Shown in pieces: positions 46,927-53,942 of a stretch of 64,000 nt of DNA; position 1 is the stretch's first letter; every line of letters begins with the position of its first letter. The position numbers were made by a program, and so were the translations under genes. This DNA is from Magnetococcales bacterium (GTDB lineage Bacteria; Pseudomonadota; Magnetococcia; Magnetococcales; JADFYX01). The notes below the pieces were generated by a model. That model worked only from the letters and a program-made list of their open reading frames with translations. It did no database searches and was not told the DNA's origin. The stretch spans positions 1 through 64,000 of the forward strand of contig PEAM01000002.1 of assembly GCA_002753565.1 (NCBI GenBank), in the 5' to 3' direction.

Positions 46927-47895
46927 CTATTGGGCCAGCTCGCTTTCGATCACCTCGGCAAAATCGGCAAAAGGGACCGCGCCGACCAATTTGATACCGT
47001 TGATAAAAAAGGTCGGCGTACCGGTAATGCCCAGCCCTTTTCCATCGGCCAGATCGTCGGCAATGCGTTGGGCATATTTGCCACTGTCCAGACAGCTGTT
47101 AAACTGGCTCATGTTGAGTTTAAGCTCTTTAGCCAGCTTTTTGAAGGCGGCAATCTCCAGCTTGGCGTCGTCGGCAAACAGAGCGTGGTGGAAGGGCCAG
47201 AAGGCATTTTGATCATCGGCACACTGAGCCGCCTCCGAGGCTTTTGGGGCTTTTTTATGGAAAGGCAAGGGGTAGTGGCGGAAGACAAAGCGCACCTTGT
47301 CGCCATAGTTTTTCTCCACTTTGTTGATGGCCTCTTGGGCCCGACGGCAGTAGGGACACTCAAAGTCGGAAAATTCTATGATGGTGATCGGTGCATCTGC
47401 CTTGCCCTTGGATGGTGTCAGGGGGCCGGGAACGGTATAACGGGGTGGGGTCATCATAAAATCCACCTCATATTTCTCGGTCAAACTCTGCAGGTAGGCG
47501 GCCTGAAGATTCTGTTTGATCTTATCTTGGAGATACTCTCGCACCTTCTCTTCCAGCCCCTCCCCTTTGGGCAGTCTGGCCCGATTGGCTTCGATGAACT
47601 CCTGAACATCCCGATCGGAAAGGGCTGGGAGTTTTCCATCGACCATCTTCTCCAGCACCTGATCAACCGCCACCCCATTGGCTTTGGCTTCCAGCTCCAG
47701 AAGATGTTCAATCACCAGCTCCTGCATTTTCTCTTCCCGCAACTCATAGAGTTTTTGGGCCAGGTCCTTATCCACCTCCGAGAGGTCCAACACCCATTTA
47801 CCCACCCGTGCCACCGGTTCTGCCTGGGCCATGGTGGTTAGAGGGGGTGCTGTGAGTGCCAACAGGGAGAGCAGTGCGACAAGTGGTCGAATCAT
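46927..47895 (-). CDS. DsbA-like thioredoxin-fold protein with a SurA-like N-terminal region
   Basis: The 322-residue exported protein (signal peptide about 1-25) has a helical N-terminal half resembling SurA N-terminal chaperone segments (ELREEKMQELVIEHLLELEAKANG), then a DsbA-type oxidoreductase domain with active site CPYC (FSDFECPYCRRAQ), a helical insertion and the cis-proline loop TGTPTFFING. Such proteins form or isomerise disulfides in the periplasm. It overlaps the upstream COQ10-like gene (TAATG). Its substrate is unknown. Confidence 0.87.
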   Translation of the reverse strand: MIRPLVALLSLLALTAPPLTTMAQAEPVARVGKWVLDLSEVDKDLAQKLYELREEKMQELVIEHLLELEAKANGVAVDQVLEKMVDGKLPALSDRDVQEFIEANRARLPKGEGLEEKVREYLQDKIKQNLQAAYLQSLTEKYEVDFMMTPPRYTVPGPLTPSKGKADAPITIIEFSDFECPYCRRAQEAINKVEKNYGDKVRFVFRHYPLPFHKKAPKASEAAQCADDQNAFWPFHHALFADDAKLEIAAFKKLAKELKLNMSQFNSCLDSGKYAQRIADDLADGKGLGITGTPTFFINGIKLVGAVPFADFAEVIESELAQ

Positions 47896-48371
47896 TATTT
47901 TTGTCCATTCATAGTGTTTAAGGGTGAATCGGATGATCCGTTTGGATAGATATCATCAGCGCGTGCCCGAAAGGCATCGACCATCCGTTTGGATGCCTCA
48001 CCGAAAACGGCTCCCAAGGCCATTTCGACCAGACGGCTTTTAAAACGAAAATCGATAAAAAAATCGATGGTGCATCCTCCATCCGGATTGTCGGTGAAGC
48101 ACCATTCACTCTGCAGATGCTTAAAGGGACCGGAGATATTGGCAATGGTAATTTTTTTGCCGGGGATGATGGTATCCAAGGTTTTGAAGGTCTCTCGCAT
48201 CCCTTTAAAGGAAAAGGTCATCTCGGACATGAACTGACTCTCGGTCTCCTCATATTTGCGGGCTTTGGCCAACCAGGGGATAAACTCCGGATAGCGATCC
48301 ATATCGACGACCAGATCATACATCTGCTGTGCGGTATAGGGAACCTTGGTTGAAGAGGTACGTTTTCCCAT
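47895..48371 (-). CDS. RatA/COQ10-like START-domain protein, second copy
   Basis: The 158-residue protein fits the family of polyketide cyclase/COQ10-like lipid-binding proteins (coenzyme Q-binding COQ10 or RatA toxin): YDLVVDMDRYPEFIPW at the start, MTFSFKGMRETFKTLD, and DFFIDFRFKSRLVEMALGAVFGE near the C-terminus. Proteobacterial COQ10-like proteins bind quinone; RatA blocks ribosome association. It lies 27 bp after a paralogue, both ahead of the DsbA-like gene. No RatB gene accompanies it, which fits COQ10 better. Confidence 0.85.
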   Translation of the reverse strand: MGKRTSSTKVPYTAQQMYDLVVDMDRYPEFIPWLAKARKYEETESQFMSEMTFSFKGMRETFKTLDTIIPGKKITIANISGPFKHLQSEWCFTDNPDGGCTIDFFIDFRFKSRLVEMALGAVFGEASKRMVDAFRARADDIYPNGSSDSPLNTMNGQK

Positions 48372-48398: not shown

Positions 48399-48833
48399 TC
48401 AGCCATGATACAGGGCGACAGCCCGTTTTCTGAAGGCGCTGATCATCTGTTTGGAAACCTGGGTAAAGACCGGCCCCATGATCATCTCCTTCACTCTGTT
48501 TGAAAAACGAAAATCGATATAAAACTCCACCTTGGTACGATCCTCACCAAGGGGGTGGAAATGCCAGGTACTGACCAGATATTGAAAGGGGCCTGATTTG
48601 AGGTTGATTTCAACTTTTTTATTTTTTTCGACCACATCCAAGGTTTGAAATTTTTCCCGTATCCCCTTGAAGGAGATGGTCAACTCCGCCATAAACTGGG
48701 TCTCTTCCTGATCCCACACCCGTGTGCGGCTGCACCAGGGCAAAAATTTCGGATAGCTCTCCACATCCACCACCAAGTCGTAGATCTTATCTGTTGAGAA
48801 CGGCAGAATTTCAGAAACTCGAATTTTTGGCAT
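48399..48833 (-). CDS. RatA/COQ10-like START-domain protein, first copy
   Basis: The 144-residue protein has the same landmarks as its downstream neighbour: YDLVVDVESYPKFLPWC, ELTISFKGIREKFQTLD, FYIDFRFSNRVKEMIMGPVF. The two differ at many positions, so the duplication is old. Binding of ubiquinone in the bc1 chain is the more likely role, but RatA cannot be excluded. It is the first gene of the three-gene unit ending with the DsbA-like gene. Confidence 0.87.
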   Translation of the reverse strand: MPKIRVSEILPFSTDKIYDLVVDVESYPKFLPWCSRTRVWDQEETQFMAELTISFKGIREKFQTLDVVEKNKKVEINLKSGPFQYLVSTWHFHPLGEDRTKVEFYIDFRFSNRVKEMIMGPVFTQVSKQMISAFRKRAVALYHG

Positions 48834-49035
48834 GAGAAGATTTAGTATTTCCGGCCCATAGGAGGTTAAGTTCCAATCAAGATTCTCTGTCTAACCTTAT
48901 ATAACCATATGGCAATGAGAGCAAATGGTCTATGATTCTTGATTATGTTCAACCGGCTTGGGCGTCTCACCCTAAAAGTTGATCTGGCGCGCGTGCCTGC
49001 TGTTTTTGGTTAACCCGACGAATAATAATGGAATC

Positions 49036-52000
49036 ATGACTATTGTAAACCGACAGAAAAAAAAGAGTCCCCCCAAATCTGGCGCCCTGTTGGCCAATCT
49101 GCGCGAGACGGCTGTGGCGTCGGTATCCATCGACCCCCTCCATGAACCGCTGCGGGAGGTGGTGGCCAACTATGCCGGAATTTTAAAAAATCTCGATCGT
49201 CTTCTTCGGGAGTTGAACCACCCCTTTCGCAACTGGAAACTGATTTTGCCAGAGCTGCGTGGGTTTGTTTTGAAAAACTGTTCCCGTTTTGCCCGCAGTA
49301 AGAGTGGGGCGGACTGTTTTCTGCTTTTTAGCGGGTTTTTTCTCAAAGCCCTGCAAGAGGTGCGAACCGAGGCAGATGTCAGGGTGGTATTGGAGGGGTT
49401 GACCGCTTATATGGAAAAGCAGGCTCTGCTACTCAAAGGGGGTGAGTTTCCCCTGTATGGTTCGGCATTTGATGCTATTTTTGAGATACTGTGCAGACTG
49501 GATGAACCCAAACTTCTGCTCCTCTCCCAGACCCATCACCCTCTCAAGCGAACGGTGGCGCACATTCTCACCAAAACCCAGAAGACAAACACCCCTTTTC
49601 CCCTATCGGCTCAAATCGTTCAAACGTTGGCCATCCGCTCTCTTCAGGCCACCTATCACTACTGGTTAAACCAGTCCGACCCGGAGTGGTATACGGTATT
49701 GGGTACGGCACCGTGTGATCAGATCGGTCATCGAGCGCTGCAACAGGCTCTGGCCGAACTTGAAGAGGTGAGCCGTCAACCGGCCAGTGTGGAAACCATC
49801 CAAAATCTCACCACCATGCCCTCTTTTTTGGATATTATTCGAGACTATCGGCAGGCCGCCGACCAACTGGGCCAGATGCAGGAGAAGGGGCCGATTAGTT
49901 CCGAGCGACTTACCGAGGGGCGTCGATTAAGGTTTTTGTTTCATATCATGGAGATCGACGGTCTCTCCTTGATCCATGAAGAGACCCTTCGTGAGATTAA
50001 CCGCAGTCTGGTCCGGCTGATCCGTCTCAAGCAGAAATTTAACGAGATCCATGAAGCCTTCGATACCGCCTTTAGCTTTTTGAAGGCCAACGTGGTCACC
50101 TATCCCCATACCGCCCTTCAGTGTATCGAGGTGTTGGGTGTGGAGGTTTTCCGTCACGATAACAGCCGGCTGGTAGAGTCTTTTTTGGAGCAGGCGGTGC
50201 GGTTTGGTTTTCAGTTTAGTTCGGTAACCGGGGTGGGTAACGATTGGCAACCCATCTGCAACCCGGCCCATCTCTACAACATTCGGGTCTGGCTGAGTCT
50301 TATCACCAAAAATCCGCCCTGGAGCCCCTTTCTCTTTTCGGCTCTCATTATCAACCTCAAGCTGACCGGAGCGCTGATTCGGGATACCGATCTTTTTCAA
50401 AAGGAGATCTCCCACCTGCTCAACAGTGGCATCAAGCCGGTCTATAACCTCACCAAGCAGTTTTGCCGTCAGCTTCCGGTCTATTATAACGAGATCGGCG
50501 CAGAGGGGGAGCTGCGCAATGTCTCCACAGAGCTGGACGAGATCAGCCGTCGGGAGGATCGACTGATCCATTTTTTACGTAAACAGTGCCATGTAGAGAG
50601 CACCAACCGTATTGTGGATCTCTCTTTTAATATCCTGAAATTTTGGCAGACGGGGGATAAAACCGTGCTGACCGGACTGGTTTCGGATGTTGTCCTGGCA
50701 GAGATTACCCCTGGTGGCCCTTATTATGACCATGTTCATCAGATTGTTGAGGGTCTCTATCAGGATATCGAACTGGAATTTGACCCGGTGGGACAGCCTC
50801 TGGATCGGGTGGAGGAGAAAATTAAGGGGTTTACCGATCAGCCAGAGTCAGAGGGCAGACGGGTCTTGCTGTTGATCCGGCTCTGCCATCTGTTGGAGTT
50901 GAAATACAATCTGGGTTTCCGAGGCATCCGACTCCCCCTGCGACAGGCGGTGGAGGATGGTATTCCCGGTATGGATGCCCTGTTGAAAATTCTTGAGAGT
51001 GGTGCCGTTGGTTATGATCGGCTGGTGGGGCTTCTGGATGCCTTGGAGAGCCTCAAAGAGACCATTCTCAGTGATGAGGTTTTTGTGGCTCGGGAGGAGA
51101 TCTATCAAAAACGGCATATTGCCGTGGATATCCCTTCGGTCTATGGCTGCTATCAGGAGCGAAAATTTGATGCCCTGTCGTTAAGTTTTCGTCTGGAAAA
51201 CCTGGCCAATGTCGATCTGGAGGGGTTGGTGGGCAGGATTCCTGAGGATTTTATCACCCGTGCCGCCTTTTTCCGGGTGTTCAAATATTTGAAAATCTTT
51301 CTGCGTGCCCTGAATGTCGATGGGGTAACCTCTCGCAAGCTGAGCCACATGCAGGATGTTCTGGAGCGATTTTTAGAGCTTAACCACTTCTCCTACCACC
51401 AATATCTGGATATCTTCCGCAGCTTTTCCGAAGGGGTGAAGGATATCATCCTCACCTATTACACCACCCACCATCGGGATAACCTGGCCATTATCGTTCC
51501 CATGATACCCCGAGAGGCTCTGTTTCCCAAATATGCGGCCTTGAAGGATGAGGACGATGTGATCACCGTCGAGCGGATTGGCGAATCCTTTTTGCGGGAT
51601 CTGATTGCCGAAACGTTTGGCTTGCAGGCGTTTGATCGGTTTATTGGCCGGGTTTTACAAATTCTGGCCCGTCAGGAGGAGCTGCTCTCCCCGGCTCGGC
51701 TGGATCAGCTCATGACCTATGACCCTGCCAAGCTGTTCTGCTCTCTTTATGAGCCGGACAGCAGAGTTCGCAATCTGATTCATCTGGGCAACAAGGGGTT
51801 TAATCTGGTCGAGTTGGTCAACCAGGGGCTGCCGGTTCCGGCGGGGGTGGTTTTGACCACCGAATTTTTCCGCTGTCGGGATGTGGTTCGAGAGTATACT
51901 CCGGCCACACGGGATTTTATGACCCGACTGCGGGACCAGCTTACCCAAATTGAAACCCGCACCGGGATGACCTTTGGTTCTGCTGATCGTCCCCTCCTCC

Positions 52001-53262
52001 TCTCGGTACGCAGTGGGGCGTTGATCTCCATGCCGGGGATGATGCAGACCATCCATAATGTCGGCTTGAATGAGGAGATTGTCCAGGGTTTGGTGCAGGA
52101 GTCGGGCAACGCTTTTTTTGCTTGGGATAACTACCGGCGTTTTATCCAATCCTGGTGCATGACGTTCGAGATGGACCGGGGTGTTTTTACCAAACTGATG
52201 CACAGTGCCAAACGGCGCTATGGTATCAAGAAAAAACGGGATCTCAATGCCGAGCAGATGGAGGAGCTAGCCAGAGAGTATCGGCAGATTGCCGAAGAGA
52301 ACAACATTCCCATTCCAGACAACCCCTGGCAACAGCTTATTGCGGCTATTAACCAGGTTGTCGAGTCGTGGGAGTCTAAAAAGGCCAAGGAGTATCGGGG
52401 TATCATGGATATTTCCGATGATTGGGGTACGGCGGTGGTGCTGCAGCGGATGGTCTATGGCAACCTGCACAACCAGGCCGGTTCTGGGGTTCTCTTTACC
52501 GCCCACCCCCACCGCAAGTTGGATCGGGTTCTGTTATGGGGAGACTATACTTCGGGAAACCAGGGGGAGGACATTGTTGGTGGTCTGGTCTCTACCAACC
52601 CCATCTCTCTGGAGCAGTGTGAATATGATGGCCGGGACCCCCAAACCAGTTTGGAGTACTGTTTTCCCAGAATCTATAACAAGCTGTTTGCCGAATCCCT
52701 CCATCTGGTCAATGTCTGCAACTGGAACCCCCAGGAGATCGAATTTACCTTTGACGGACCGGGGGAAGATAACCTTTTTTTCCTGCAAAGTCGGGATATG
52801 GTCACTACCAAAAATCGACAATCCATTTTTCATAGCTTTATCGACACCCCAGAGCTGCGTGCCTCTCGTTTGGTTCAGGGAATTGGCGTGAGTGGAGGGG
52901 CCTTGTGTGGTCGGGCTGTTTTTAATCTGGAACAGGTAGAACAGCTACGCCAGGAGGATCATTCTATCCCATTAATCTTAATCCGTTATGATACGGTACC
53001 CGATGATATCCGCGAAATTTCCCTTGCGGATGGTCTGCTTACTGCTCGAGGTGGTCAAACCTCCCATGCGGCCATCGTGGCGGCAAGATTGGATAAAACC
53101 TGTGTGGTGGGGTGTGAAGACTTGATTATTCAAGAGGCGGTGGGACTGTGTGAGGTTAACGGCATGACCATTCGCTGTGGTGACGCTATCAGTATTGATG
53201 GCAACCGAGGGGTCATGTTTAAAGGGTGGCACACCATCGAAACCAGCTTGATTGGCCGTTAG
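49036..53262 (+). CDS. Large PPDK-like protein: unknown N-terminal region, ATP-grasp and phosphohistidine swivel, no PEP barrel
   Basis: The product (1408 residues from the second ATG) has about 900 residues of mainly helical sequence with no family that I recognise. A pyruvate phosphate dikinase-type ATP-grasp domain follows (about 912-1265: NKGFNLVELVNQGLPVPAG, SVRSGALISMPGMMQ, WGTAVVLQRMVYGN, SGVLFTAHPH, GNQGEDIVGG), then the swivel domain with phospho-acceptor H1344 in ARGGQTSHAAIVAAR. The protein ends there, without the C-terminal PEP/pyruvate barrel, so PPDK activity as such is unlikely; an unknown acceptor is phosphorylated, as in rifampin or glucan dikinases. It is monocistronic. Confidence 0.8.
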   Translation: MTIVNRQKKKSPPKSGALLANLRETAVASVSIDPLHEPLREVVANYAGILKNLDRLLRELNHPFRNWKLILPELRGFVLKNCSRFARSKSGADCFLLFSGFFLKALQEVRTEADVRVVLEGLTAYMEKQALLLKGGEFPLYGSAFDAIFEILCRLDEPKLLLLSQTHHPLKRTVAHILTKTQKTNTPFPLSAQIVQTLAIRSLQATYHYWLNQSDPEWYTVLGTAPCDQIGHRALQQALAELEEVSRQPASVETIQNLTTMPSFLDIIRDYRQAADQLGQMQEKGPISSERLTEGRRLRFLFHIMEIDGLSLIHEETLREINRSLVRLIRLKQKFNEIHEAFDTAFSFLKANVVTYPHTALQCIEVLGVEVFRHDNSRLVESFLEQAVRFGFQFSSVTGVGNDWQPICNPAHLYNIRVWLSLITKNPPWSPFLFSALIINLKLTGALIRDTDLFQKEISHLLNSGIKPVYNLTKQFCRQLPVYYNEIGAEGELRNVSTELDEISRREDRLIHFLRKQCHVESTNRIVDLSFNILKFWQTGDKTVLTGLVSDVVLAEITPGGPYYDHVHQIVEGLYQDIELEFDPVGQPLDRVEEKIKGFTDQPESEGRRVLLLIRLCHLLELKYNLGFRGIRLPLRQAVEDGIPGMDALLKILESGAVGYDRLVGLLDALESLKETILSDEVFVAREEIYQKRHIAVDIPSVYGCYQERKFDALSLSFRLENLANVDLEGLVGRIPEDFITRAAFFRVFKYLKIFLRALNVDGVTSRKLSHMQDVLERFLELNHFSYHQYLDIFRSFSEGVKDIILTYYTTHHRDNLAIIVPMIPREALFPKYAALKDEDDVITVERIGESFLRDLIAETFGLQAFDRFIGRVLQILARQEELLSPARLDQLMTYDPAKLFCSLYEPDSRVRNLIHLGNKGFNLVELVNQGLPVPAGVVLTTEFFRCRDVVREYTPATRDFMTRLRDQLTQIETRTGMTFGSADRPLLLSVRSGALISMPGMMQTIHNVGLNEEIVQGLVQESGNAFFAWDNYRRFIQSWCMTFEMDRGVFTKLMHSAKRRYGIKKKRDLNAEQMEELAREYRQIAEENNIPIPDNPWQQLIAAINQVVESWESKKAKEYRGIMDISDDWGTAVVLQRMVYGNLHNQAGSGVLFTAHPHRKLDRVLLWGDYTSGNQGEDIVGGLVSTNPISLEQCEYDGRDPQTSLEYCFPRIYNKLFAESLHLVNVCNWNPQEIEFTFDGPGEDNLFFLQSRDMVTTKNRQSIFHSFIDTPELRASRLVQGIGVSGGALCGRAVFNLEQVEQLRQEDHSIPLILIRYDTVPDDIREISLADGLLTARGGQTSHAAIVAARLDKTCVVGCEDLIIQEAVGLCEVNGMTIRCGDAISIDGNRGVMFKGWHTIETSLIGR

Positions 53263-53510: not shown

Positions 53511-53942
53511 ATGATGTATCCTGTTAAACCGGTACGGACTCTTATGGGTCGTCTGGACCATGATGCTGACCTGCTGGAGGCTCTGACCCATATTTGTCGG
53601 GAGGAGAGGATTCAACTGGGTAGAATCGAGGCGCTGGGGGCCGTTAAAAAGGCCGCTTTGGGCTATTATGACCAGGAGAAAAAACTCTATCGCTCTTTTG
53701 AGATCGACCGACAGCTGGAGATTCTCAATCTGGTGGGTAACATCTCCCTGAAGGAGGGCGAGCCCTTTGTTCACGCTCATGTCACCTTGGGGGATGATGA
53801 GGGTCGCTCCTATGGTGGACATCTTATTGCCGGTACCCCCATTTTTGCCTGTGAAGCCATCATCCAGGTGTATGAGGGGCCGGCACTACGGCGAGAAGTG
53901 GAGCCGGTAACCGGCCTCCCTTTATGGGTCACGTTAAATTGA
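53511..53942 (+). CDS. PPC domain (DUF296) protein
   Basis: The 143-residue protein is a stand-alone PPC/DUF296 domain. It shows the metal-binding-like pattern FVHAHVTLGDDEG with a later GGHLIAGTP, and the early segment LMGRLDHDADLLEALTHIC. In plants PPC domains occur with AT-hook proteins; the bacterial singles form trimers of unknown role and may bind a small metal or metabolite. The start has AAGGAAC upstream. It is followed by mnmG with a 103-bp gap. Confidence 0.87.
   Translation: MMYPVKPVRTLMGRLDHDADLLEALTHICREERIQLGRIEALGAVKKAALGYYDQEKKLYRSFEIDRQLEILNLVGNISLKEGEPFVHAHVTLGDDEGRSYGGHLIAGTPIFACEAIIQVYEGPALRREVEPVTGLPLWVTLN

Follow-up and report, generated by a model that had tools for sequence, protein, structure and literature searches.

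Locus and domain organisation

The window analysed here, the first 64,000 nucleotides of contig PEAM01000002.1 from a Magnetococcales bacterium (assembly GCA_002753565.1), carries a gene for a large relative of pyruvate phosphate dikinase (PPDK), which we call PPDKL (Table 1). Its open reading frame starts with the ATG at 49036 (a TTG at 48979 is a possible alternative) and closes with a stop codon ending at 53262. A Pfam search of the product returned PPDK_N at residues 917-1191 and the PEP-utilizers mobile domain at 1314-1392 (PEP, phosphoenolpyruvate) and nothing else; PF02896, the PEP/pyruvate barrel, was not found in it. Against the Protein Data Bank (PDB), phmmer aligned residues 905-1402 with PPDK residues 9-514 and nothing past that, and comparison with Pfam, NCBIfam and the PDB places the end of the chain at the point where the barrel starts in PPDK. 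The score against TIGR01828, the PPDK equivalog, is 382 bits, below the cut-off of 843. Judged by its ATP-grasp and swivel half, PPDKL is a member of the PPDK superfamily, yet it lies outside PPDK proper, being barrel-less and below the equivalog cut-off. A sub-threshold Pfam "rve" match at 1027-1091, inside the ATP-grasp domain and seen in one of 14 orthologues, was dismissed as chance.

The sequence-only reading of this locus had described a PPDK-like protein without a PEP barrel, with about 900 unrecognised residues ahead of the ATP-grasp domain and a chain ending after the swivel, with H1344 in a TSHAA motif. This layout stands: no barrel was detected, and a frameshift or lost barrel as the cause of the short chain is ruled out by the relatives, nearly all full-length copies of which end no more than about 10 residues from the end of our query.

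Table 1. Features of the PPDKL locus, with positions in the window
Feature	Residues	Position	Strand	Remarks
PPDKL, whole gene	1-1408	49036..53262	+	1408 residues; barrel-less PPDK-type dikinase; reading frame intact; Pfam, PDB, orthologues
N-terminal region, proposed acceptor or partner module	1-905	49036..51750	+	all-helical superhelix (predicted), unassigned family
Third low-confidence loop	397-408	50224..50259	+	G399 and W404 nearly invariant; N409 and H412 come after
Conserved stretch (YNEIGAEGELR...HFLRKQCHVESTN)	484-524	50485..50607	+	one of the two best-conserved N-terminal stretches; 484-488 low-confidence in both models
Conserved stretch (KRHIAVDIPSVYG...FRLE)	692-721	51109..51198	+	the other best-conserved N-terminal stretch; 692-702 a low-confidence loop between hairpin strands in both models
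PPDK-type ATP-grasp domain	905-1255	51748..52800	+	Pfam, NCBIfam, PDB; K920, R992, E1234, E1236, Q1251, R1253 conserved
Phosphohistidine swivel domain	1280-1398	52873..53229	+	Pfam, PDB, structure match
Codon of catalytic His1344, in GGQTSHAA	1344	53065..53067	+	His in 114 of 115 sequences, gap in the remaining row
Two tandem Polyketide_cyc (RatA/Coq10-like) genes		47895-48371, 48399-48833	-	upstream of and divergent from PPDKL; neighbourhood recurs in many Magnetococcales
PCC-domain protein gene		53511-53942	+	downstream of PPDKL, followed by an mnmG-like gene (by eye)

Conservation and predicted structure of the catalytic half

His1344 aligns with His455 of Clostridium symbiosum PPDK, and across 115 aligned PPDKL sequences a histidine occupies this position in every row that has a residue there. 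In the same alignment the equivalents of PPDK K22, R92, E323, Q335 and R337 are invariant and that of position 321 is Glu in 114; the catalytic roles of these residues are presumably those generally known for the C. symbiosum enzyme. An AlphaFold model of residues 300-1408 has PPDK (1kbl) as its top PDB match in Foldseek (E = 8e-31, root-mean-square deviation 3.7, 32% identity), and it fits the 1kbl/1dik state far better than the second conformational state that 2r82 is described as representing. We read the modelled arrangement as one in which the swivel would be turned to the acceptor side. Because the ATP-site residues and the histidine are conserved and the model is closest to PPDK, we consider it very likely that His1344 is phosphorylated from ATP, with the machinery known from conservation.

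A barrel could in principle act in trans, making PPDKL one part of a split PPDK or PEP synthase whose product is still PEP. Two-component dikinases of the superfamily do exist (HpeHI, PMC12167813), and neither a canonical PPDK nor a PEP synthase was detected in the source genome, which is 99% complete. However, the sole barrel of that genome sits in a 594-residue protein that has a swivel domain of its own and is most likely enzyme I of the phosphotransferase system (PTS), the barrels of 11 other genomes all lie in proteins of 584-951 residues, as expected for enzyme I, PPDK or PEP synthase, and most relatives also carry a canonical PPDK of about 900 residues. We therefore consider a split enzyme extremely improbable. 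The earlier proposal of an ATP-dependent phosphotransfer to an acceptor other than barrel-bound pyruvate is supported by the invariant catalytic residues and by the location of this sole barrel.

The N-terminal region

Residues 1-900 have no family match in Pfam, NCBIfam or the PDB, nor was a consistent match found in the corresponding region of 14 diverse orthologues, which gave isolated sub-threshold matches only. AlphaFold predicts residues 1-905 as an all-helical superhelix (pLDDT 85.4, pTM 0.73), interrupted by a single small hairpin near 686-707. Foldseek comparison of this model with the PDB returned generic alpha-solenoids only, at E > 1e-3 and TM < 0.2, and nothing specific. The carbohydrate- or nucleotide-binding fold at which the sequence-only reading had hinted was thus not found by Pfam, AlphaFold or Foldseek.

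Arg, Lys and His are abundant in the stretches 484-524 and 692-721, where the loops are flexible. Ordering of the N-terminal loops by addition of the catalytic module was tried with the 300-1408 model, and the loops stayed at low confidence. Loops that are conserved yet flexible in the models would suit an acceptor or partner site, and PPDKL may extend the PPDK superfamily by an acceptor module built as a helical superhelix.

Distribution of PPDKL

The search for homologues of the same layout, suggested with the initial reading, gathered 132 distinct loci from Magnetococcales, Desulfobacterota and Thiomargarita-type Gammaproteobacteria. The N-terminal region is present in 45 of 48 Magnetococcales genomes, mostly within an intact protein of about 1400 residues. 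A scan with the N-terminal alignment, taking one genome per species, confirmed at least 561 loci, the best 80 of which belong to Magnetococcales, Thiomargarita and other Thiotrichaceae, Desulfobulbales, Desulfobacterales and cable bacteria. In the phylum of locus L118 (genome G066), PPDKL occurs in 74 of 247 genomes. Among the matches listed from plasmid records none is a full-length PPDKL; those present resemble PPDK in the catalytic part alone. Two individual cases may be recorded: in one copy (L230, 7433-11597, genome G133) an apparent frameshift at about residues 545-620 breaks the gene into two overlapping reading frames, and genome G066 holds two copies of different subtypes (L225 and L118), each adjoining a gene for glyceraldehyde-3-phosphate dehydrogenase (GAPDH).

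Pairing with a distinct GAPDH

A GAPDH gene lies within the fetched flanking DNA at 97 of the 132 loci. Two kinds occur: an ordinary GAPDH of about 335 residues, usually just upstream of PPDKL, and a distinct type I relative of about 420 residues, usually just downstream, which we call GapL. Within 1.5 kb of PPDKL, GapL is found at 61 loci and ordinary GAPDH at 56; both counts may include a locus twice, as happened for a few of them.

The pairing with GapL extends beyond adjacency. When the same 247 genomes were searched for GapL, which is clearly separated by score (at least 530 bits, against about 313 at most for ordinary GAPDH), exactly the same 74 were positive; no genome has PPDKL or GapL alone, and the pairing holds also where the two genes lie on separate contigs. 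The 61-genome Magnetococcales set comprises 42 genomes with both, 14 with neither, three with PPDKL only and two with GapL only. Among these exceptions, a contig end lies close behind PPDKL in two PPDKL-only genomes, G005 (a 5602-base contig) and G023, G017 and G042 are 78% and 75% complete, and in G022 the contig with GapL is mostly masked as N. G021, 99% complete, lacks both genes while its family relatives have both. In the order of Thiomargarita, seven of 43 genomes carry PPDKL, five of them with GapL and two without, and GapL is absent from the other 36. The source genome carries the two genes on one contig, separated by about 102 kb. Given this strict co-occurrence and the adjacency of the genes, PPDKL is to be seen as the functional partner of GapL, and we conclude with good confidence that the two form a functional unit.

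The PPDKL and GapL trees both group Thiomargarita with Magnetococcales and place the same two Desulfobacterota sequences adjacent, a matching placement that suggests a common transfer history. A mirror-tree comparison gave r = 0.85 for PPDKL against GapL (57 loci); it was rejected as specific evidence for pairing since the short GAPDH correlates equally well (0.88, on a 19-locus subset).

All 57 GapL sequences keep the catalytic Cys and His and have an Arg at the site of the NAD-selecting Asp of most ordinary GAPDHs. Because this Asp is replaced, the sequences suggest that GapL uses NADP(H) and has an anabolic role. GapL also carries extra segments relative to ordinary GAPDH, and these, together with the strict pairing, leave room for a purely regulatory relationship: PPDKL would phosphorylate GapL, or scaffold it through the helical superhelix, tuning triose-phosphate flux to energy charge with no metabolite made. 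A big superhelix fits protein binding, and conserved loops can be flexible where they dock a partner. However, the complete PPDK-type ATP chemistry has been kept, beyond the needs of a regulator, and no conserved GapL-specific His or other acceptor was identified; we judge regulation of GapL to be unlikely, though deserving of serious attention.

Other neighbouring genes

Several Desulfobacterota show the order rapZ, rimI-like, gap, PPDKL, gapL, pgk, tpiA, secG or else PPDKL, gapL, gap, pgk, tpiA. The sequence-only reading had stated that no neighbouring gene reveals the substrate, which is true of the window; the relatives tell otherwise, with genes for GAPDH, phosphoglycerate kinase (PGK) and triose-phosphate isomerase beside PPDKL and, in one lineage, GlgA.

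That lineage is the Desulfobulbales, where the order is aroK, aroC, glgA, gap, PPDKL and a GlgA-type glycogen synthase gene thus lies directly upstream of gap-PPDKL in many genomes. PPDKL might accordingly be a glucan dikinase whose N-terminal region binds glycogen and whose His1344 phosphorylates it, like the plant glucan and phosphoglucan water dikinases (GWD and PWD), the former a known His-swivel dikinase. Yet the GlgA linkage is mainly confined to this one lineage whereas the GapL pairing spans three groups, Pfam, AlphaFold and Foldseek revealed no carbohydrate-binding fold, the progression from ATP-grasp to His is opposite to that of GWD, and the source genome has a separate protein in which a swivel comes before an ATP-grasp. 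Glycogen is consequently an improbable acceptor.

In part of the Desulfobacterota, PPDKL lies downstream of rpoN-hpf-ptsN-rapZ-EIIAman. As its swivel is also related to that of enzyme I, PPDKL could be imagined as an enzyme I analogue that phosphorylates HPr or EIIA, an ATP-driven entry to a PTS-type phosphorelay. Those neighbours, however, are part of an rpoN cluster that is itself common, and they did not appear at the Magnetococcales, Thiomargarita or Desulfobulbales loci, and five small PPDKL genomes have no barrel protein of enzyme I size, which makes such a relay very improbable.

Independently of these loci, the source genome encodes on contig C6 (L071, 1402-3927, minus strand) a protein of at least about 840 residues in which a swivel-like domain precedes a PPDK_N ATP-grasp domain, a GWD-like order. 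The product of the gene close behind it resembles, by eye, a relative of serine beta-lactamases and D,D-peptidases.

Proposed activity of PPDKL and GapL

Our preferred, though tentative, interpretation is that PPDKL is a dikinase driven by ATP that shares the handling of its acceptor with GapL, the simplest case being conversion of 3-phosphoglycerate to 1,3-bisphosphoglycerate. By analogy with PPDK, the ATP-grasp domain would first move a phosphate from ATP to His1344, releasing AMP and PPi (or Pi). The swivel would then leave the ATP site for an acceptor that the helical N-terminal region, standing in for the PEP barrel, would hold with its conserved flexible loops. The acceptor would finally be handled with the dedicated, probably NADP-type GapL, a step for which the pairing is supported and the chemistry conjectural: the phospho-His would phosphorylate the carboxylate of 3-phosphoglycerate, and GapL would reduce the resulting 1,3-bisphosphoglycerate to glyceraldehyde 3-phosphate. 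Transfer from phospho-His to a carboxyl group has a precedent in succinyl-CoA synthetase. We envision the net result as a two-phosphate-bond bypass of PGK in the anabolic direction, like that of PEP synthase around pyruvate kinase. The most economical reading we can offer pairs a dikinase that makes an acyl phosphate with a reductase dedicated to that acyl phosphate, and 3-phosphoglycerate would be the likeliest acid, an assignment somewhat short of probable.

Several observations weigh against this interpretation. It is only the pairing with GapL that points to a carboxylate acceptor, and the co-occurrence counts ignore shared ancestry. The key N-terminal loops are modelled at low confidence even with the catalytic module present, hence no pocket can be described. 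PGK adjoins PPDKL in some lineages only, GlgA and aro genes take such a place in Desulfobulbales, and in the window none of GAPDH, PGK, GlgA or aro genes adjoins PPDKL. A normal PGK, moreover, is present in 21 of 22 genomes tested, so that the proposed route would be redundant. This count, the remaining genome having only a weak fragment, rules out PPDKL as a replacement for PGK, and since PGK is also present the route would be a second one. In its full form, the proposal has the PPDKL and GapL unit convert 3-phosphoglycerate into glyceraldehyde 3-phosphate by a dikinase route that takes ATP to AMP, alongside PGK and ordinary GAPDH, in many magnetotactic bacteria and many bacteria of the sulphur cycle; in this form it is possible but doubtful. 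Even with another acceptor, a conserved dikinase of about 1400 residues tied to its own GAPDH would be of interest for gluconeogenesis or carbon fixation in these groups.

A search of the open-access literature gave no description of PPDKL, of its pairing with GapL or of such an activity; within that scope the pairing, like the proposed N-terminal acceptor module, seems to be undescribed.

Comparison with known systems

In rifampin phosphotransferase and the two-component aromatic dikinases (HpeHI, CreHI, PpsAB), ATP-grasp and swivel domains are coupled to a non-pyruvate acceptor domain (PMC12167813). PPDKL shows the same modular logic, but a RIF-type acceptor domain was not found in it and its sequence is far nearer PPDK. 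Enzyme I of the PTS combines a swivel, an HPr-binding domain and a PEP barrel, a combination that PPDKL does not have by Pfam and NCBIfam. The plant glucan and phosphoglucan water dikinases resemble it in joining a large N-terminal region to a swivel and an ATP-grasp domain. In GWD, however, the swivel precedes the ATP-grasp whereas in PPDKL it follows, and no carbohydrate-binding module was found in PPDKL.

The closest relative is PPDK itself (TIGR01828; 1kbl), with which PPDKL shares the ATP-grasp and swivel, the Lys/Arg/Glu/Gln/Arg set of the ATP site and the TSH motif with its conserved His; it differs in having no PEP/pyruvate barrel and in the 900 extra helical residues ahead of the ATP-grasp. 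PGK with type I GAPDH would carry out the same net step and is encoded in the same operon as PPDKL in some Desulfobacterota, but the fold of PGK is unrelated and its reaction is ADP-forming and proceeds without a phospho-His. If the proposed route is real, sulphate reducers, sulphur oxidisers and magnetotactic bacteria, all abundant groups, would possess an additional and irreversible counterpart of the PGK/GAPDH step, a part of central carbon metabolism held to be universal; it would oppose that step much as PEP synthase or PPDK opposes pyruvate kinase.

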